Below are positions 5,321-30,245 of a DNA stretch of 31,195 nt, piece by piece. Source of the DNA: a virus; IMG/VR virus record IMGVR_UViG_3300046167_000051, positions 1 to 31,195 of that record, one strand, 5' to 3'. The translations under genes were made by a program, and so were the position numbers. The notes beneath the pieces were generated by a model. The model worked only from the letters and a program-made list of their open reading frames with translations, was not told the DNA's origin and did not search any database. Position 1 is the stretch's first letter. Every line of letters begins with the position of its first letter.

Positions 5321-6037
5321 ATGCACGCCCTAGTCGATGGAGACATTATTGCCTATCGTGTAGGCTTTGCTTGTCAGAAGAAGGATAAGGAAACAGGGTT
5401 AGTTACTGCTGACCCTTTATCTTATGCTTTACACTCTACTAAGCTCTATGTCAATCAGATAATAGATGACTGTGGCTGCAACAGCTACACTATATACCTC
5501 ACACCTAAGACAACCTTCCGTAACAAAGTAAGAGATGATTACAAGGCAAACCGCAAAGGTATTGACAAGCCTGTACACATCAAAGCAATAAGAGATTACT
5601 TAGTCAATATTTACAAGGCTAAGATAGTAAAGAACATTGAGGCTGATGATGCGTTAGGTCTTAAACAAGATCGGAATACTATGATATGCAGCATAGATAA
5701 AGATTTGTTAATGTGTGAAGGCAATCATTACAATTTTGTAAAGCAAACTTTTACAACTGTAACTAAAGGCACTGAATTTTTTTATCAACAAATGATAACT
5801 GGTGATAGTGCGGATAATATCTTAGGGATTAGAGGTCTTGGTAAAGTTAAGGCAAGCAAGCTATTAAAGGATACTGCAAGGGAAGATTGGGATAATATGA
5901 TTATTGATTTGTACATAAAAGAGTTTGGCTACGAGGAAGGTCGTAACAGATGCGTTCAGAATAGCCAACTCTTATGGATATTACAAAAAAACAAACAAAT
6001 GCCAATGGACTTTAGTTATGATGCTACAACAACTTGA
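5321..6037 (+). CDS. 5'-3' exonuclease / flap endonuclease family (T7 gp6 role)
   Basis: This 238-aa FEN/PIN-type nuclease would remove primers and degrade DNA from 5' ends. Conserved acidic clusters are visible in order: LVDGDIIAYR (Asp6, Asp8), IEADDALG (Glu107, Asp109, Asp110), SIDKDLL (Asp126, Asp128) and MITGDSADNILG (Asp162, Asp165). They are followed by the helix-hairpin-helix-like GIRGLGKVKASKLL. The ATG abuts the SSB stop with no gap, so coupled translation is likely. The gene ends inside the first codons of the next one. The acidic residues expected for two-metal catalysis are present, so it should be active. Confidence 0.92.
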   Translation: MHALVDGDIIAYRVGFACQKKDKETGLVTADPLSYALHSTKLYVNQIIDDCGCNSYTIYLTPKTTFRNKVRDDYKANRKGIDKPVHIKAIRDYLVNIYKAKIVKNIEADDALGLKQDRNTMICSIDKDLLMCEGNHYNFVKQTFTTVTKGTEFFYQQMITGDSADNILGIRGLGKVKASKLLKDTAREDWDNMIIDLYIKEFGYEEGRNRCVQNSQLLWILQKNKQMPMDFSYDATTT

Positions 6038-6695
6038 AATGTTTAAGAAAGACCAACAATTAGTTTTAATTGGCGATTACGTTGTTAAGCAAATTGAATA
6101 TAAAGAAACAAAACCTTTTATATTAGATATACATTATGCAAAGCGTATGCCTTCTATAAGTTTTGCTTATGGTTTGTTTTTAAACAACACTTTAGTTGGA
6201 ATGGTTTCTTATGGTTCACCACCTTCCCCTTCTTTGTGTAAAGGTATAGCTGGAGAAAGTAATAAACATCTTGTTATAGAGCTAAACAGATTGGTTCTTA
6301 AAAACAATAAGAAAAATGAAGCATCTATTTTAATTTCATCTTCTTTTAAGTTGCTACCAAAACCAAAAATAATTGTTTCTTATGCAGATACTGAACAAAA
6401 TCATTTAGGAATAGTGTATCAAGCAACCAACTTTTTATATACTGGTTTATCTGATAAAAGGAAAGAATGGAGAATAAAAAACTCTAATTTACATAGTAAA
6501 ACTGTTTGTGAAAAATATACATTAAACGAAAGAAAGTTTAATGCAGATAAGTTTATACAAATAGAAAGACCTAGAAAACATAGATACATATATTTAATTG
6601 GAAATAAAACTGAAAAAAAACAACTTAAAAAACAATTAAAATATAAACAATTAGATTATCCTAAAGGTTTTAAATATGAACAAGTACAGAAGTAA
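6018..6695 (+). CDS. Mom-family adenine modification enzyme (GNAT-like)
   Basis: This 225-aa protein resembles the phage Mom family, which converts adenine in DNA to a bulky modified base and so protects phage DNA from restriction. The recognisable stretch runs from ISFAYGLFLNNTLVGMVSYG through VIELNRLVL, KIIVSYADTEQNHLGIVYQA and FLYTGLSD to a basic end with KHRYIYLIGNK and LDYPKG. These segments occur in this order in Mom-like proteins that I recall. The start is uncertain: ATGs at 6018, 6021 and 6039 all lack a good ribosome site, and the conserved core begins after all of them. It overlaps the exonuclease end and the endonuclease I start. Base composition is noticeably more AT-rich than in the flanking polymerase genes, which hints at separate acquisition. 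Confidence 0.78.
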   Translation: MMLQQLEMFKKDQQLVLIGDYVVKQIEYKETKPFILDIHYAKRMPSISFAYGLFLNNTLVGMVSYGSPPSPSLCKGIAGESNKHLVIELNRLVLKNNKKNEASILISSSFKLLPKPKIIVSYADTEQNHLGIVYQATNFLYTGLSDKRKEWRIKNSNLHSKTVCEKYTLNERKFNADKFIQIERPRKHRYIYLIGNKTEKKQLKKQLKYKQLDYPKGFKYEQVQK

Positions 6696-8146: not shown

Positions 8147-8380
8147 ATGACTAAGGTGGTTAAAGGTGTTAGCAACTTTCAATGGGGTGGAGATCACTAT
8201 AGGAAACTACCTATCCAAGTATGGGATTTTATTGCTGCTAACAAACTAGATTACTTCCAAGGTAATGTTATTAAGTATGTATCAAGATACAAAGAGAAAA
8301 ATGGCTTAGAAGATTTACAAAAAGCCAAGCATTACATAGATAAAATTATTGAAAACGACTATACGGAGTACAAAAAATGA
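8147..8380 (+). CDS. DUF3310-like small protein
   Basis: This 77-aa protein contains DHYRKLPIQVWDFI, followed by NKLDYFQGNVIKYVSRYK, GLEDLQKAKHYIDKII. This is the hallmark of the DUF3310 family of small phage proteins, often labelled nucleotide kinase without direct proof. The fold is an all-helical pair resembling the MazG type. The ATG at 8147 is chosen because GGAGG lies just upstream; the ATG at 8135 overlaps that site itself. The last codon overlaps the start of the ribonucleotide reductase by 4 bases, which fits a nucleotide-pool role. That role is an inference from context. Confidence 0.85.
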   Translation: MTKVVKGVSNFQWGGDHYRKLPIQVWDFIAANKLDYFQGNVIKYVSRYKEKNGLEDLQKAKHYIDKIIENDYTEYKK

Positions 8381-9576
8381 ACCAATACCAACAGTACATA
8401 GCCTTGTCAAGATACGCAAGATGGATACCTGAGCTAAATAGAAGGGAAACTTGGAAGGAAACAGTCAACCGATATATGACTAATGTTGTATCTGATAAGG
8501 TAAGTAAAGATACTTACAAGCAACTAGAAGATGCAATCTACAATCTAAATGTCATGCCAAGTATGCGAGCAATGATGACTGCTGGTCAAGCTATGCAACG
8601 AGATAACACATGTTCTTACAACTGTAGCTACTTAGCAGTAGATGACCCTAAGTGTTTTGATGAAGCAATGTTTATCTTATTGTGTGGTACTGGTGTTGGT
8701 TTTAGTGTTGAGCGTCAGTACATTAGCAAGCTCCCTGACGTACCAGATGAGCTGTACAAGAGCGATACTACTATAGTAGTTAGTGATAGTAAAGAAGGGT
8801 GGGCTAAAGCCTTTAGACAGCTAATCTCGTTGCTCTATGCAGGTGAGATACCTAAGTGGGATACACATAAGGTACGACCTGCTGGTGCTAAGTTAAAAAC
8901 ATTTGGTGGTAGGGCATCTGGTGCTGAACCTTTAGAAGACTTGTTTACCTTTACTTGTGAAACATTTGAAGCAGCTAAAGGTAAGAAGCTATCTAGTATT
9001 CAGTGTCATGATCTACTATGTTATACAGGACAGGTTGTGGTGGTGGGAGGGGTAAGGAGAAGTGCAACGATCTCCTTGTCTAACTTATCTGATGATCGTA
9101 TGCGTCATGCCAAGTCAGGCGATTGGTATGTGCTTAATCCTCAGAGAGCATTAGCAAACAACAGCGTTGCTTACACAGAGAAACCAGACATGGAAACATT
9201 CCTTCGTGAGTGGACTGCCCTAGTAGAATCTAAGTCTGGTGAGCGTGGTATCTTCTCTCGTGTTGCATCTAAGAAGCAAGCTGCTAAGAATGGTAGGAGA
9301 GATACTAACTATGACTTTGGTACAAATCCTTGCAGCGAGATAATCTTGAGAGGGTCAAAAATAGATGCTAAAGGAAACCCTATTACTGGTACAGGTGGTC
9401 AGTTCTGTAACTTAACAGAAGTTGTAGTTAGACATGATGACAATCTTGAAACCTTAACTGAGAAGGTTAAGTTAGCTACTATCTTAGGTACAATACAAGC
9501 TACCTATACTAAGTTTCCCTTACCTAAGAAAAGTATGGCAACGAAACACAGAAGAAGAGAGATTGCTTGGTGTTAG
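8377..9576 (+). CDS. Class II (adenosylcobalamin-dependent) ribonucleotide reductase, N-terminal part
   Basis: This frame holds the first 380 or so real residues of a class II ribonucleotide reductase, which makes deoxyribonucleotides for phage DNA synthesis. Visible landmarks are NTCSYNCSYL (active-site cysteine near residue 79 or 83), LLCGTGVGFSVE, GGVRRSATISLSNL, FGTNPCSEI (Cys319, Glu321) and QFCNLTEVV (Cys344). There is no ATP-cone domain and no small subunit nearby, which points to the monomeric B12-dependent type. After TKFP at about 9519 the frame runs into unrelated residues and stops. The homologous continuation YLRKVWQRNTEEERLLGVSM lies in the +1 frame. One extra C in CCC at 9517-9519 explains the break. 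Confidence 0.9.
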   Translation: MNQYQQYIALSRYARWIPELNRRETWKETVNRYMTNVVSDKVSKDTYKQLEDAIYNLNVMPSMRAMMTAGQAMQRDNTCSYNCSYLAVDDPKCFDEAMFILLCGTGVGFSVERQYISKLPDVPDELYKSDTTIVVSDSKEGWAKAFRQLISLLYAGEIPKWDTHKVRPAGAKLKTFGGRASGAEPLEDLFTFTCETFEAAKGKKLSSIQCHDLLCYTGQVVVVGGVRRSATISLSNLSDDRMRHAKSGDWYVLNPQRALANNSVAYTEKPDMETFLREWTALVESKSGERGIFSRVASKKQAAKNGRRDTNYDFGTNPCSEIILRGSKIDAKGNPITGTGGQFCNLTEVVVRHDDNLETLTEKVKLATILGTIQATYTKFPLPKKSMATKHRRREIAWC

Positions 9577-14927: not shown

Positions 14928-15140
14928 TTAAAGTAGTGGTGGTATTCCAAAAAACGTTAGAAGACCATTACCAGCAGTTTTCCACCAATCGTCTTCATCC
15001 ATGCTACCACCATCATTATTACTTATGGGGTTTAGAAAACCCCCTTGGTCATTAAATAAGTTTAAAGTATCTAAACTAAAACCTTCTCCTCCTGCACCAT
15101 CAGGGGGATTCTTAAATACGTCTAAGAACCCCCCATCTAA
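14928..15140 (-). CDS. -1 frame extension (70 codons) of the 316-aa structural protein
   Basis: Immediately at the stop of the 316-aa gene, the -1 frame is open for 70 codons to a TAA at 14928-14930. It begins LDGGFLDVFKNPPDGAGGEG, continues FSLDTLNLFNDQGGF and ends DDWWKTAGNGLLTFFGIPPL plus Leu. The composition (Gly, Asp, aromatic) matches the end of the upstream protein. The frame has no start codon at its beginning: a TAA lies at 15165-15167 and the first ATG is 46 codons in. It can hardly be made except by frameshifting or if one base is missing. A slippery heptamer and a strong hairpin sit exactly at the junction. Confidence 0.72.
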   Translation of the reverse strand, partial: LDGGFLDVFKNPPDGAGGEGFSLDTLNLFNDQGGFLNPISNNDGGSMDEDDWWKTAGNGLLTFFGIPPLL

Positions 15141-15146
15141 AAACCC
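15103..15146 (-). promoter_or_regulatory. Probable programmed -1 ribosomal frameshift signal (slippery heptamer plus hairpin)
   Basis: Read on the minus strand, G_GGT_TTT in the zero frame (15146-15140) is an X_XXY_YYZ slippery heptamer, followed directly by the zero-frame stop TAG. After a 5-base spacer (TAGAT) comes GGGGGGTTCTTA (15134-15123), an 8-base loop, and TAAGAATCCCCC (15114-15103). This is a 12-bp stem with a single G-U pair. No T-run follows, so it is not a terminator. An AGGAGGGAG sequence lies 21 bases upstream of the heptamer (15168-15176) and could act as an internal Shine-Dalgarno stimulator, though dnaX-type stimulators lie closer. Confidence 0.72.
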
Positions 15147-16087
15147 AGATTTAACAAGTCTTGATTACTCCCTCCTAAATTTAAAGAGTTTGTAAATGAG
15201 GAACTAGTATTACCACTATTAGGGCTACTAAACATACCTATAATCTGGTTTGCACCAAAATCTGCTAAAGGGTTTGCAAAAGTTGAGACTGCACTTGATA
15301 AAACCCCACCTAACAAGCCACCATCACCAGAAGTTGCTTTAGTACCAGCTTGTGCTAATGCAGCACCACCTTGTGCAGATGCAGATTGTGCCCTAGACCT
15401 AGCCTCTTCAACACTAAGACCACGATTAATTAAGGCATCTTCCAGATTAACAATATCTCCAAATGCACCAAGAGTTCCTTGAAATCCACCCAATAGGTTT
15501 TGAGCTTGTAGTTGTTGTTGTTGCTCATTGGTTAAAAATGCTTGTAAGGCTTGATTATATGCTTGTTGTTGCTCTTGTTGTGCTTGTAACCTTGATTTAC
15601 TACTTAAATCAGCTAAAGCCCTAGCTTGTGCTAAACCTAATCCATAAGCATCTGGTTGAACCATACCAACATTACCAGCACCTGCTGCTTCTCCTGATAG
15701 TTGTAATCCTAGTCTACCACTACCAAACAAATCTGATTGTAGTTGTTGTCTTTGTCGCTCTAATGATGGCTCAAGCAAAGCAGACTGTGTTCTAAATATG
15801 TCAGCAGCCCTTTGTTCACCACTATCAACGCCACCGAACAGAGGCAGTTGTCTACCAGCTTGTTTTGCAAAACCCTCTAAAAAGGGTTGTGGGTAAGGTA
15901 GTGCTGATTGACCTATATTTACTAAAGTTGGGTCAATTTGTGACTCCACATTAAAACCATAAGAACCAACAGGTTTACCAGTAGTAGTACCTATCTGACT
16001 TGTATAAGTGTAAGGTTGAAACTGAGCTCCTTTGTAGGGTTGTGCTGGTTTGGCTTTTTTACCACCACCACCTAAAACTTTACCCAT
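15137..16087 (-). CDS. Gln/Gly/Ala-rich internal virion or tail-associated protein (316 aa; 386 aa with -1 frameshift)
   Basis: The protein opens with a basic Gly-rich segment (MGKVLGGGGKKAKPAQPYKG). It has a helical, Gln-rich middle (SRLQAQQEQQQAYNQALQAF near residue 165) and a Gly/Ala/Ser-rich end (GGLLGGVLSSAVSTFANPL). No enzyme motif is visible. It is the first of three probable core or ejection proteins following the tail genes. The stop at 15137-15139 is part of an apparent programmed -1 frameshift site. A minor longer product would carry 70 extra residues, much as T7 makes two capsid forms by a -1 shift. The start at 16087 overlaps the previous gene by 8 bases. Confidence 0.72.
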   Translation of the reverse strand: MGKVLGGGGKKAKPAQPYKGAQFQPYTYTSQIGTTTGKPVGSYGFNVESQIDPTLVNIGQSALPYPQPFLEGFAKQAGRQLPLFGGVDSGEQRAADIFRTQSALLEPSLERQRQQLQSDLFGSGRLGLQLSGEAAGAGNVGMVQPDAYGLGLAQARALADLSSKSRLQAQQEQQQAYNQALQAFLTNEQQQQLQAQNLLGGFQGTLGAFGDIVNLEDALINRGLSVEEARSRAQSASAQGGAALAQAGTKATSGDGGLLGGVLSSAVSTFANPLADFGANQIIGMFSSPNSGNTSSSFTNSLNLGGSNQDLLNLGF

Positions 16088-16406: not shown

Positions 16407-16934
16407 CTACGCAGTACGTTTCCACATATAAACTGTTATGTAAGGTTGGTAGTTAGTGTCAGTAGCACTTACACCTTCTGTGCTGTTAGCAACAGTAATA
16501 CCTGTTACTGCTGAACTAGTGTCATTAGTCATACTATAAGTTTCATCACCATTAAAATCATCTGTCGATACGCCTCCCCCTGGTCTATAAACACCACCAT
16601 GAACGTGACCACCATCAGTAACAGTAGCAGTATGAGTGTGTGACACAAGAATAGAATCAGCACTACCACCTGTTTCTTCAACAGTATCAAACAGTGTATT
16701 ACCACCATCTAAACCAACCATTACTCTACCAGCACCAAAGGCAGCCCATGTACCAAAACCTAATAAAGTGGCTGGGTTAGTGGCTACAGAAGCCTGTGTA
16801 TAAATACTTCCTACTGGAAGTAAGGCAGTTTTTGTAGCAGCAACTGCTGTTGTAATAGCTGCTGTTACATAAGCTGTTGTAGCTAGTTGAGTATTGTCTG
16901 TATCAGAGCTAGCTGTTGGGGCTGTAGGAGTGCC
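16407..16934 (-). CDS. Tail-collar domain protein, C-terminal part (frameshifted)
   Basis: This frame carries GTPTAPTASSDTDNTQLATT, then LLPVGSIYTQASVATNPATL, LGFGTWAAFGAGRVMVGLDG and the His-rich SHTHTATVTDGGHVHG, ending YQPYITVYMWKRTA. That is the phage tail-collar/fibre-tip domain, whose HxH motifs bind metal in related fibres. The open frame reaches back to 17006, but residues before about 16934 are out of register with the family. The N-terminal half lies in another frame (16909-17094), and dropping one G from GGG (16933-16935) joins them into 228 aa. It probably forms part of the receptor-binding tail tip. Confidence 0.85.
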   Translation of the reverse strand, partial: GTPTAPTASSDTDNTQLATTAYVTAAITTAVAATKTALLPVGSIYTQASVATNPATLLGFGTWAAFGAGRVMVGLDGGNTLFDTVEETGGSADSILVSHTHTATVTDGGHVHGGVYRPGGGVSTDDFNGDETYSMTNDTSSAVTGITVANSTEGVSATDTNYQPYITVYMWKRTA

Positions 16935-17094
16935 CTGTAAGGGCTGGACTATTGGTGTCAGCTTTACTATTAACTGCTGTTTGAATAGCACTAAACTCAT
17001 CATCAATCTCCGTACCTTTTACAATCTTGTTAGCGTTACCTGTACTCAGGGCATCTTTAGCTGCAAAGTCTGTTGTTTTTGAATAATTACTCAT
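16909..17094 (-). CDS. Tail-collar protein, N-terminal part (frameshifted)
   Basis: This 61-codon frame encodes MSNYSKTTDFAAKDALSTGN, then KIVKGTEIDDEFSAIQTAVN and SKADTNSPALTG. This is the typical virion-anchoring start and first fibre repeat of tail-collar proteins. It then runs into unrelated residues and stops at a TAG. The expected continuation (GTPTAPTASS...) is in the +1 frame. AGGAT 8 bases before the ATG gives a good start, and the ATG follows the stop of the nozzle-like gene directly. Read together with 16407-16934 it is one 228-aa gene. Confidence 0.85.
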   Translation of the reverse strand: MSNYSKTTDFAAKDALSTGNANKIVKGTEIDDEFSAIQTAVNSKADTNSPALTGHSYSPNS

Positions 17095-21236: not shown

Positions 21237-21764
21237 TTATAATAACACCCATCTTTGTCCACTTGGTACTGTTACTGTTACACCACTTGCAATAGTCATT
21301 GGGCTAACACTCATACCATTAGTGTCAGTAGTTAAAGTATAGTCAGCAGTTATCTCGTTAGTGTTTTCGTATATTGCACCACCTGCTGATGCACCACCAC
21401 CTCCTCCTATAGCACCCCAAGCACTTCCATCATATCCTTCAAAAGAACCTGTAGTAGAATTAAACCTAATGTATCCTGCTGCTGGAGAACCATCTCGTTG
21501 TGCTGTAGTACCACTGGGTAATAAACCTGCACCTGTACTAGAAGTTTTAGTTACAGTAGTTGCTAGAGGAGAAGCATCATCTGCTTTAGTTCCCTGTGCT
21601 GCTGTTGCGTAATCTGTACTAGCAGTTGTAGCTGCTGTTCCTAAACCTAAGTTAGTTCTTGCAGTACTAGCATTAGTTAAGTCTGATAGATTGTTTGCCT
21701 TCTGCATAAAAGAACTAGTGTCAATACTAGCTGCACTAGCTGCTGCTTCTGAGGCAGATGTAGC
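21237..21764 (-). CDS. Tail fibre/appendage, C-terminal part (frameshifted)
   Basis: In this frame the protein continues as ATSASEAAASAASIDTSSFM, then QKANNLSDLTNASTARTNLG and LGTAATTASTDYATAAQGT. That is the classic phage fibre shaft segment (NLSDLxNAxTARxNLGLG). It ends with a Gly-rich GSFEGYDGSAWGAIGGGGGA region and a strand pair closing in QRWVLL. Reading further upstream in this frame gives Gln/Leu-rich nonsense from the shifted alanine repeats. The real N-terminus is in the other frame (to 22335). One extra base near 21764-21765 separates the two. Joined length is about 365 aa. Confidence 0.8.
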   Translation of the reverse strand, partial: ATSASEAAASAASIDTSSFMQKANNLSDLTNASTARTNLGLGTAATTASTDYATAAQGTKADDASPLATTVTKTSSTGAGLLPSGTTAQRDGSPAAGYIRFNSTTGSFEGYDGSAWGAIGGGGGASAGGAIYENTNEITADYTLTTDTNGMSVSPMTIASGVTVTVPSGQRWVLL

Positions 21765-22335
21765 CTGCTGCTGTTGCAGAGTTAGCTGCGTTTGTTTCGC
21801 TTGTGCTTGCTGCACTTGCAGAGTTACTAGCATTAGTTGCTTGTGTAGAAGCCGTGCTTGCTGAAGTAGCTGCATTAGTAGCAGATGTACTAGCTTCAGA
21901 AGCCTTAGTTGTTGCTGTTGTAGCAGATGTAGCTGCCTCACTAGCCTTAGTAGTAGCTGTAGAAGCACTGCTTGCTGCATTAGTCTCTGCTGTCTCAGCA
22001 TTTGTTTCTGAGGTTGCCGCTGCCGTAGCTGAACTTGCTGCTGCGGTAGCTGAATTAGAAGAGTTAGTCGCTTGTGTACTTGCAGTAGATGCAGATGTAC
22101 TTGCATTACTTGCAGAGGTAGAAGCACCAGAAGCAGAAGTTGCTGCTGCTGTTGCTGAGTTACTTGCATTAGTTTCTGATGTGCTAGCATTACTAGCTGA
22201 TGTACTGGCTGAAGTTGCACTTGATGCTGCTGAATCAGCAGAATTTGCTGCTGCAGTAGCTTTTTCTGTAACAGAGTTAATTGTTACATCAGTGTTTGCA
22301 TCACCTGCTCCACCATCACCACGAAATATTGCCAT
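21736..22335 (-). CDS. Tail fibre/appendage, N-terminal part (frameshifted)
   Basis: This frame starts MAIFRGDGGAGDANTDVTIN, an opening known from fibre proteins of marine phages. It continues as a long Ala/Ser/Thr repeat (SASNASTSETNASNSATAAA and similar), which probably forms a trimeric coiled shaft. After NSATAA near 21766 the frame becomes out of register and stops. The shaft continues in the +1 frame. The start lies a few dozen bases after the capsid terminator, with only a weak ribosome site (GTGAG). Confidence 0.8.
   Translation of the reverse strand: MAIFRGDGGAGDANTDVTINSVTEKATAAANSADSAASSATSASTSASNASTSETNASNSATAAATSASGASTSASNASTSASTASTQATNSSNSATAAASSATAAATSETNAETAETNAASSASTATTKASEAATSATTATTKASEASTSATNAATSASTASTQATNASNSASAASTSETNAANSATAAGYICLRSSS
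21800..22290 (-). repeat. Ala/Ser/Thr codon repeat region of the fibre shaft
   Basis: About 490 bases are built of imperfect short repeats encoding Ala, Ser, Thr and Asn in near-heptad order (units such as TSASNAS and TASTQATNS). Both wrong frames stay open for long distances because of this composition, which produces false Leu/Gln-rich frames. The repeat number could vary by recombination or slippage, changing shaft length. Confidence 0.8.
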
Positions 22336-22402: not shown

Positions 22403-23353
22403 CTAGTTTTTAGGTACAGAGATAACTAGACCACTTTCAGGTCTAACTGTTTTAACACCATATAGAGTGTCAGCAGTCATCAAATCACCCAAATACTCTT
22501 GCTTGTATTGAGTTTGTGTACGAACACCGATTTGTTCTGCTAGTACCATTGCATCTTTCTGAGCCATGATAGCACCAATAGTATCAACAGCAGATGCTGA
22601 GTTGTCAGCAGCAGTTTCAACTACAGGTAGGTTGTTAGACACATAAATGTCAACACCATAAAGGCTACCGATTTGACCATTAACAACACCTCTGTTATCT
22701 ACGAAGTCAGAAGATTGATAGCGATCAATGCCCATGATAGTAGTACGAACACTTGGTGGAATAACTAAGAATCTTCCGTCCATAGGAACATCATTATCAT
22801 CAAGTTGTTGTACTGCTTCTCTGAAGGCTAAGTCAGTAAACAAGTCAGTTGCAGCTACAGTATCAACTGCATAAGCAGCCAATCCATTAGCAGCATCAAT
22901 GTAAAAACTGTTAGAGTGAACAAAGTCAGAACCTGATCCGTTATCATCTCCAAAAGTTTTAGCTAACAAGCCTATGTCAGAATCTAATTGTGTTGCTAAA
23001 GCATATCCAGCATCTTCGGTGTAGAAACTACGAAGTGAAGGTTGTGCTTGAACATCAACAATATCTTCAATTAAGCGTGAGTATTCAAAGTGCTTGTTAA
23101 TTGCTACTTGCACTTCAGACTCAGTTGCTGCAATCAAAGTTACTTCTGTGTTTGCTGCTTTAGCAGAAGCTGCACCACGAGTAGGTTTAGGGATATGAAT
23201 TGTATCTCCCTTCTTTCCACTGTGATTCATTTTGTTAATTAAGTTCGCGAGAACCAAATTTTTCTTATAGCCAGCGATGATCTCATCAGACCAAATCTCT
23301 GGTATAAAAGTAGCCGCTGTAGTAGTGGTTACTTGATTAGTACCTAATCCCAT
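22403..23353 (-). CDS. Major capsid protein
   Basis: This 316-aa protein is the likely shell subunit with the HK97 fold. It starts MGLGTNQVTTTTAATFIPEI, then WSDEIIAGYKKNLVLANLIN, a typical N-arm. It contains GDTIHIPKPTRGAAS (E-loop region) and EAVQQLDDNDVPMDGRFLVI, followed by PPSVRTTI, a widespread capsid segment (the dVPxdgRflVi motif). It ends in a strand-rich domain closing VRPESGLVISVPKN. The gene directly follows the scaffold gene, has AAAGGA before the ATG, and is followed by a strong terminator. This is the usual set-up for the most abundant late protein. Confidence 0.93.
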   Translation of the reverse strand: MGLGTNQVTTTTAATFIPEIWSDEIIAGYKKNLVLANLINKMNHSGKKGDTIHIPKPTRGAASAKAANTEVTLIAATESEVQVAINKHFEYSRLIEDIVDVQAQPSLRSFYTEDAGYALATQLDSDIGLLAKTFGDDNGSGSDFVHSNSFYIDAANGLAAYAVDTVAATDLFTDLAFREAVQQLDDNDVPMDGRFLVIPPSVRTTIMGIDRYQSSDFVDNRGVVNGQIGSLYGVDIYVSNNLPVVETAADNSASAVDTIGAIMAQKDAMVLAEQIGVRTQTQYKQEYLGDLMTADTLYGVKTVRPESGLVISVPKN

Positions 23354-28669: not shown

Positions 28670-28962
28670 TGTGTATTCCTTTGTGGGTATTGTAAGTCTT
28701 CTAGTTTTATAAAGTTTTTATCGTTTATAAACCATCTAGCAAAAGCATTATCTACGTTATCTTTACTAGGGTAGAAACTAGCTAGGTCTTTCATCTCTTG
28801 TTCAGCATAGTTAAAGTTAGGTACAAACGAAATAAGTGACATTAACTGTTGCTGTACTACAATCTGTTGTTCTAGGGTAACTGCACTCTCTACTTTCTTA
28901 GCTAGAGCTACTGCCCTCTTTGATACTAGGGCTTTGAGCTTATCATTCTTTGTAATGACTTG
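28657..28962 (-). CDS. -1 frame extension of the secreted 439-aa protein (or separate 61-aa gene from 28842)
   Basis: This frame is open for 101 codons before its stop at 28657. It reads QVITKNDKLKALVSKRAVAL, then AKKVESAVTLEQQIVVQQQL, MSLISFVPNFNYAEQEMKDL and VDNAFARWFINDKNFIKLED. The first ATG is at 28842, 40 codons in, with no evident ribosome site. No ATG, GTG or TTG lies earlier in the frame, although the residues upstream of 28842 look equally protein-like and coiled. It probably forms the C-terminus of the upstream 439-aa protein, reached by a -1 shift at AAAAAAC or if one A is missing. The joined product would be 529 aa. Confidence 0.58.
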   Translation of the reverse strand, partial: QVITKNDKLKALVSKRAVALAKKVESAVTLEQQIVVQQQLMSLISFVPNFNYAEQEMKDLASFYPSKDNVDNAFARWFINDKNFIKLEDLQYPQRNTQWQR

Positions 28963-30245
28963 TTTTTTCTCAGCTTCTTCGGAGCTTGTTTGTTAGCAAC
29001 TGTCTTCTCAATCGGTTGCTCCTGCTTTCTATCATTTTGTTCATCAACAGGCTTCTCCCTTTCCTCAACAACTTCTAATTCCTCTGTTGGCTCTTCTCGT
29101 TCCTCTCTTGGTTCTTCTCTTTCCTCAGGTTCTCTTTCTCTCTGGACAATTTCCGAGAAAGATTCCTCTCCCATACTTGGTTCTTCCATTTCCCTCTGTT
29201 CCAATTCACGAGGTTCAACATCATTTACAACTTCCTCTCTTCTTGGTTCAATAACTGGGGCAGAGGCACTTGGCATACCCTCTATTTGATAACCAGTTGT
29301 ACCAGCAAAGTCAGTAATTAAGTCTGGTTGCTCTAGCACTTCACTAATAGGATTCTCACCTTCAATCCTAATAGGTTCTGGTTTTTCTTCTGTTACTTTT
29401 CTTTCTTCTCTGTCTACATAACCAGCACAAGTCTTGTCATACTGTGGGTTATACATACACTGTTGTTCTAAATACGCTTTAGCGTACCCTGTACACTCTG
29501 GGTCATAAGTAGCATCAGCATTACAAGCCTCTGTGTACAAGAATTCTGCGTAAGCCTCTGCATAATTAGGGCAAGATGGGTCATATAACGCATTAGAATC
29601 ACAAAAAGCTAGGTTTAAGTTACCAAATGTACTAGGTATTCCTTCATATCCATTAGGATAGTAGGCTTCTTGTACTCCTTCTGACACATCTTTTGCTAAG
29701 TTTCCTGCTTCTCCTGTACTTATTGTATGGTCTTGTATGTTTACAGCAGTGTAATCTACAATATAAGTACCATCTTTCTTAATTTGTAGCTCAAAGGTGT
29801 TTAATCTAGTAGCATCATAGAATTCTGCTAGGTTTTTCCACCTGTAAGTCTGTTGTGAGGTATCACCTTCTGTAAATAACCCACTGTTTCCTTGTTCTAA
29901 GTCTATTAAGTCTGTCCATAATGGGGCTATAGCGTATCCGTACCTACTAATATCAGTACCATCTTCAGACATTTTAACCAAGTCAAGACCTTGACAGCAC
30001 CAGTGGCTTTCTACTTGACTATCTGTTGGGTTACGAAAACCAACTACACCATTTGTAAACATATAAGAGGTTTCAAACTCTTCACCATAAAAAGGAAATA
30101 CAAACTGTAGTGGTACTTCTGCATAACCATCATCAGATACAGTAGTCTGATTAGGGCTAGTTAGCTTAACCTCATCACAGTAAGAATAGGAGCATAGCGA
30201 GAGTAACAATACCGCTAGCAATCCAACCTTGACGCTCTCTGACAT
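28926..30245 (-). CDS. Secreted protein with NIDO-like domain, Cys repeats and Glu/Arg-rich tail
   Basis: This 439-aa protein starts with a signal peptide (VGLLAVLLLSLCSYSYC near residues 7-23). Residues about 45-215 resemble the extracellular NIDO fold: FVFPFYGEEFETSYMFTNGV, YAIAPLWTDLIDLEQG, NTFELQIKKDGTYIVDYTAV. Next come three Cys repeats of the form C-(8-9 residues)-YDP-x-C-x-x-YA-x-AY (about 219-283), then a long acidic, Arg-containing low-complexity stretch (EREPEEREEPREEREEPTEE). The zero frame ends in KSLQRMISSKP, but a -1 frame continues. Such a protein could act in the host envelope during lysis or adsorption blocking, or on the virion surface. Function is unknown. It overlaps the preceding gene by 71 bases. 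Confidence 0.68.
   Translation of the reverse strand: MSESVKVGLLAVLLLSLCSYSYCDEVKLTSPNQTTVSDDGYAEVPLQFVFPFYGEEFETSYMFTNGVVGFRNPTDSQVESHWCCQGLDLVKMSEDGTDISRYGYAIAPLWTDLIDLEQGNSGLFTEGDTSQQTYRWKNLAEFYDATRLNTFELQIKKDGTYIVDYTAVNIQDHTISTGEAGNLAKDVSEGVQEAYYPNGYEGIPSTFGNLNLAFCDSNALYDPSCPNYAEAYAEFLYTEACNADATYDPECTGYAKAYLEQQCMYNPQYDKTCAGYVDREERKVTEEKPEPIRIEGENPISEVLEQPDLITDFAGTTGYQIEGMPSASAPVIEPRREEVVNDVEPRELEQREMEEPSMGEESFSEIVQREREPEEREEPREEREEPTEELEVVEEREKPVDEQNDRKQEQPIEKTVANKQAPKKLRKNKSLQRMISSKP
28962..28968 (-). promoter_or_regulatory. Candidate -1 slippery heptamer AAAAAAC
   Basis: In the zero frame of the 439-aa gene the codons are AGA AAA AAC AAG, so A_AAA_AAC fits the X_XXY_YYZ rule in phase. 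A shift here leads straight into the 101-codon -1 frame. A weak stem (GCCCT and AGGGC with a 10-base loop) lies downstream, but more than 20 bases away, and no strong internal Shine-Dalgarno is seen. A missing A in the run is an equally good explanation. Confidence 0.4.

Follow-up and report, generated by a model that had tools for sequence, protein, structure and literature searches.

A predicted programmed -1 ribosomal frameshift at the end of a virion-protein candidate gene in a clade of podovirus-type phages

Described frameshift systems and the setting of the locus

Gene 10 of the podoviruses T7 and T3 encodes a virion protein; a -1 shift close to its 3' end yields a C-terminally extended second form (10A/10B), and the X_XX part of the T7 shift site is G_GU (PMC5009743). 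This is the major capsid gene, and stimulation in T7 involves sequence more than 200 nt away. Phage lambda G/GT likewise makes two products, in a set ratio, by a -1 shift near a gene end. This pair belongs to long-tailed phages, where it serves their tape measure protein. Escherichia coli dnaX combines a slippery heptamer (A_AAA_AAG), a short spacer and a simple stem-loop of 11 bp with an internal Shine-Dalgarno sequence 10 nt upstream, and its shifted frame ends early. A putative -1 slippery sequence has also been announced, without comparative evidence, for the overlapping endolysin and internal virion protein genes 39/40 of a marine podovirus, Alteromonas virus vB_AspP-H4/4 (PMC5658483); the likeness to the present locus is one of description, and the idea of a frameshifted virion protein therefore has precedent.

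The window, meaning the whole stretch of DNA analysed, is a virus record of 31195 bases. Its minus strand encodes a terminase, an SU10/P22-type portal, the major head protein and tail/fibre genes and its plus strand replication genes, a podovirus-type set in a short-tailed-type genome. The plus strand also has a strong match to the Mom protein family at 5925-6695 (PF25680, E 7e-39) and, at 8377-9576, a 399-aa protein with matches to B12-dependent (class II) ribonucleotide reductase domains. The gene of interest encodes 316 aa and is flanked by a fibre/100-aa gene pair on one side and by 410- and 727-aa genes on the other (Table 1).

The 316-aa protein had no match, nor had the surrounding 7.2-kb region, among INPHARED phage records, and sequence searches of Pfam, PHROGs and the PDB gave no usable match. 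Its AlphaFold model (mean pLDDT 44) was too poor for a fold search. One relative with an S74 domain, L012, has matches to virion proteins that rest mostly on its C terminus. Together with the neighbouring fibre and large late genes, these matches make the protein a likely virion-protein candidate, and the label of core/tail protein given in the original prediction is plausible.

The locus resembles T7 gene 10 in the position of the shift, in the predicted extended second form and in belonging to a podovirus-type genome. It differs in that the gene is other than the major capsid gene, the extension is another one and a strong hairpin adjoins the site. A T7-like dual capsid was rejected, as a separate gene encodes the major head protein and neither Pfam nor PHROGs gave a match for the 316-aa protein; a lambda-like tail assembly chaperone was rejected on the same lack of matches, the SU10/P22-type portal and the podovirus-type gene set. 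The 316-aa gene would work like T7 gene 10 and lambda G/GT while being a member of neither gene family. The arrangement of heptamer, short spacer and simple stem-loop (14 bp here) is that of dnaX. Unlike in dnaX, the shifted frame lengthens the protein, and the sole Shine-Dalgarno-like motif, GGAGGGAG, is too distant, at more than 20 nt upstream, to be accepted as a stimulator.

Table 1. Positions of the frameshift features and associated genes in the window
Feature	Position	Strand	Remarks
Zero-frame gene, 316 aa (short product)	15137..16087	minus	Stop TAG 15139-15137; homologues found
TAA closing the -1 frame upstream	15165..15167	minus	
Slippery heptamer GGGTTTT, phase G_GGT_TTT	15140..15146	minus	AAATTTT in the same phase in L004/L006
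5-nt spacer TAGAT	15135..15139	minus	Zero-frame stop TAG within
Putative stimulatory stem-loop, 14 bp (two G-U), 4-nt loop CGTA, -21.3 kcal/mol	15103..15134	minus	Arms 15134-15121 and 15116-15103; identical in five relatives
-1 frame extension, 70 codons (LDGGFLDVF...GIPPLL)	14928..15140	minus	Stop TAA 14930-14928 included
Major head protein	22403-23353		

Heptamer, hairpin and the -1 frame

The sequence makes a programmed -1 ribosomal frameshift at the end of the 316-aa gene highly probable. Read directly on the minus strand, the 3' end of the gene is CTG GGT TTT TAG AT, followed by GGGGGGTTCTTAGACGTATTTAAGAATCCCCC, so that the overlap of both frames holds an in-phase slippery heptamer directly before the zero-frame stop (GGGTTTT here, AAATTTT in L004/L006). 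The -1 frame contains no ATG, GTG or TTG between its upstream TAA and the hairpin, and is open through 14931, giving 70 codons after the heptamer and the C terminus ...LLTFFGIPPLL. The extension is an acidic tail with a hydrophobic end (DDWWKTA...FGIPPLL), and the predicted long product of 386 aa has its first 316 residues in common with the short product. Direct reading thus agreed with the original prediction on the heptamer, the limits of the -1 frame and both product lengths.

On mammalian ribosomes, G_GGU_UUU ranks with the heptamers most prone to shifting; the spacers studied most measure 5-9 nt, and simple stem-loops act as stimulators of -1 shifts in bacteria (PMC5009743). A downstream RNA structure is present within this distance, as the 14-bp hairpin begins 5 nt past the heptamer. 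It was found by folding and missed by an inverted-repeat finder, whose seeds are broken by G-U pairs. The location and spacing of the stem had been predicted correctly; the 12 bp, 8-base loop and single G-U pair first assigned to it gave way on folding to the values in Table 1. Of the 20768 segments of 45 nt tested on both strands of the window, none folds more stably than the hairpin, and among the 53 in-phase X_XXY_YYZ sites in window genes the GGGTTTT site has the strongest downstream fold (-21.3 vs -16.2 kcal/mol for the next best). The surrounding 120 nt also fold better than their shuffles (z -3.3). A screen of 731 ORFs of at least 100 aa from the fetched loci, a redundant set, required three features together: a heptamer in phase, 40 or more codons of -1 extension, and a -1 frame free of early start codons. 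Only copies of the 316-aa gene were returned. This screen and the rank of the fold upheld the earlier claim that the coincidence of heptamer, spacer, stem and open -1 frame goes beyond chance. An Rfam search gave no credible match, and an intrinsic terminator was rejected for the hairpin, with no T tract present and no terminator found.

In the proposed mechanism, the ribosome would pause on GGT TTT as it meets the strong hairpin, whose base is 5 nt downstream. The tRNAs on GGT and TTT (AAT and TTT in L004/L006) would slip in tandem, and a fraction of ribosomes would move back one base on GGGTTTT (AAATTTT in the sister phages), read past the stop and lengthen the protein by 70 residues. The 316-aa form is expected to be the major one and the 386-aa form the second product. 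Both forms may be built into the virion, in which case a minority of subunits would carry the acidic tail.

In this family a stop codon commonly overlaps a start codon, and many relatives begin the next gene in this way. This would fit re-initiation at the stop codon, with the -1 frame as an independent small gene that has a start codon. Such a gene is very unlikely: past the upstream stop, the first start codon in the window's -1 frame is an ATG that follows more than 45 codons of the extension, and where L004/L005 have an earlier ATG the window reads TTA, which leaves no conserved start. Transcriptional slippage on the T run, which would generate mixed mRNAs, is the least probable alternative considered and can almost be set aside. 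The window does have a run of five T, but slippage usually requires runs of about 8 or more, L004/L006 have only four, and a strong hairpin 5 nt downstream is a ribosomal arrangement.

Conservation among close relatives

The decisive evidence is comparative and, like the rest of the case, comes from sequences. The same protein is present in five IMG/VR contigs (93-96% identity), whose DNA is 86-95% identical to the window over the aligned parts. The pair L002/L003 agrees at 99.9% and the pair L004/L006 at 99.5%; with these near-duplicates the contigs amount to about three lineages besides the window. In L002, L003 and L005, GGGTTTT is followed by TAG. The junction in L004/L006 is TTA AAT TTT CAG ATG GGG GGT TCT TAG, with AAATTTT in the same phase; three adjacent G-to-A changes, from GGGTTTTTAG to AAATTTTCAG, have preserved the X_XXY_YYZ pattern. 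The zero-frame stop of these two contigs is displaced downstream past MGGS, to within the 5' arm of the hairpin, and their -1 frame is open to the same ...FGIPPLL end (protein 80% identical). Shift site and shifted frame are therefore conserved in five contigs of three lineages. The original prediction looked to homologues for the split, a conserved GGGTTTT and the hairpin: split and hairpin were kept in all five, GGGTTTT itself in three and AAATTTT, in phase, in two. None of the five has one continuous frame without slippery site and hairpin.

These contigs also bear on whether a sequencing or assembly error removed a base from the T run of a truly continuous gene. The window has two other breaks with the look of such errors. 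At 16933-16935 on the minus strand, in the fibre gene (genes 16909-17094 and 16407-17006), a third G breaks the reading between ALTG and TPTAPTAS, where five relatives have GG and a continuous frame. In gene 28926-30245 (minus strand, 439 aa), the frame is broken at an in-phase AAAAAAC at about 28962-28968; homologues L104-L108 are in one frame of 529-535 aa, and this AAAAAAC was rejected as a frameshift signal as the relatives read through. Both breaks are absent from relatives and are therefore window-only indels, arising from error or from recent mutation. A further frame break is possible at 21237-22335 on the minus strand, where both of two overlapping frames match tail fibre families. 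The concern over a missing base is thus sound in general, and only homologues tell a real case from look-alikes. At the heptamer site, however, no frame-changing indel was found between the window and its relatives, and the split is common to five other contigs of three lineages. L004/L006 have just TTTT behind AAA and a stop at another place, so that the same error would be needed in every contig at two different sequences. A single missing base, which the original prediction had thought hard to reconcile with the locus, is ruled out because L004/L006 have a different slippery heptamer, and error as the source of the split is highly improbable.

If the split instead went back to a frameshift mutation fixed in an ancestor, only the short protein would be made and the -1 frame would be a remnant. 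In favour of this, the extension reads on naturally from the end of the zero-frame protein (DLLNLGF ... DTLNLFNDQGGF), and more distant relatives manage without it. Against this, the -1 frame is still open and still encodes a similar protein. After the heptamer, the window differs from L004 by 27 substitutions with 56 of 69 residues kept, and from L005 by 32 with 55 of 69 kept; the frame is stop-free despite these changes, and a stop appears in 60-65% of trials when they are placed at random. For each of the two relatives, protein similarity exceeded all 5000 randomisations, and dN/dS of the extension is about 0.45. This indicates that the -1 frame is under selection. The survival of the heptamer pattern through the triple G-to-A change and the invariant hairpin also argue against a remnant, and an ancestral mutation is an unlikely explanation, the least so of the alternatives to a programmed frameshift.

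The invariance itself extends beyond the stem, which is identical across all relatives and offers zero varying base pairs to count for covariation. There are no variable columns from the spacer, past its first base, through the hairpin, and the next one is 61 nt from the heptamer start; the first base of the spacer is a base of the stop codon and is changed in L004/L006. Codons 3-14 are unvarying (p about 0.007, random placement of variable codons). Part of this invariance could reflect protein constraint.

Clade limits and meaning for the family

A profile search for homologues of the 316-aa protein gave 80 loci. The extension is absent from relatives outside the five close contigs (those with a readable C terminus, at most 72% identity), and when searched alone, as a sequence and as a profile, it matched only the same five. 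The distant relatives have an ordinary stop; some end shortly past the conserved part and others with an in-frame C terminus resembling an S74 chaperone. Judged by these relatives, the frameshift device is confined to one clade, in which it appears to have arisen or survived at the C terminus, a part of the protein that varies between members of the family. The S74-type intramolecular chaperone C terminus occurs in frame in L012 (with a Pfam match), L017, L030, L040 and others. The C terminus of the homologues is, on this comparison, a modular slot, S74-type in some and with nothing in others. In L007 (6770-6810) and L029, an in-phase GGGAAAA immediately precedes TAATG, at which the following gene overlaps. 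This was taken as an ordinary overlap; a shift there would fuse two genes.

That a known trick is used here in a new gene context, away from the tail chaperone and major capsid genes that are its usual sites in phages, is a well-supported reading of these sequences. The clade offers a natural swap between two slippery heptamers, GGGTTTT and AAATTTT, and a single contig contrasts a shift that appears real with two indels that resemble one. Gene callers would list the short protein only. More tentatively, this uncultured marine-type podovirus clade may frameshift a 70-residue tail onto a minority of the subunits of an internal or tail-associated virion protein, while its cousins fill the same slot in frame with an S74 chaperone domain or with nothing; the ratio of the two forms could in this way have become selectable.
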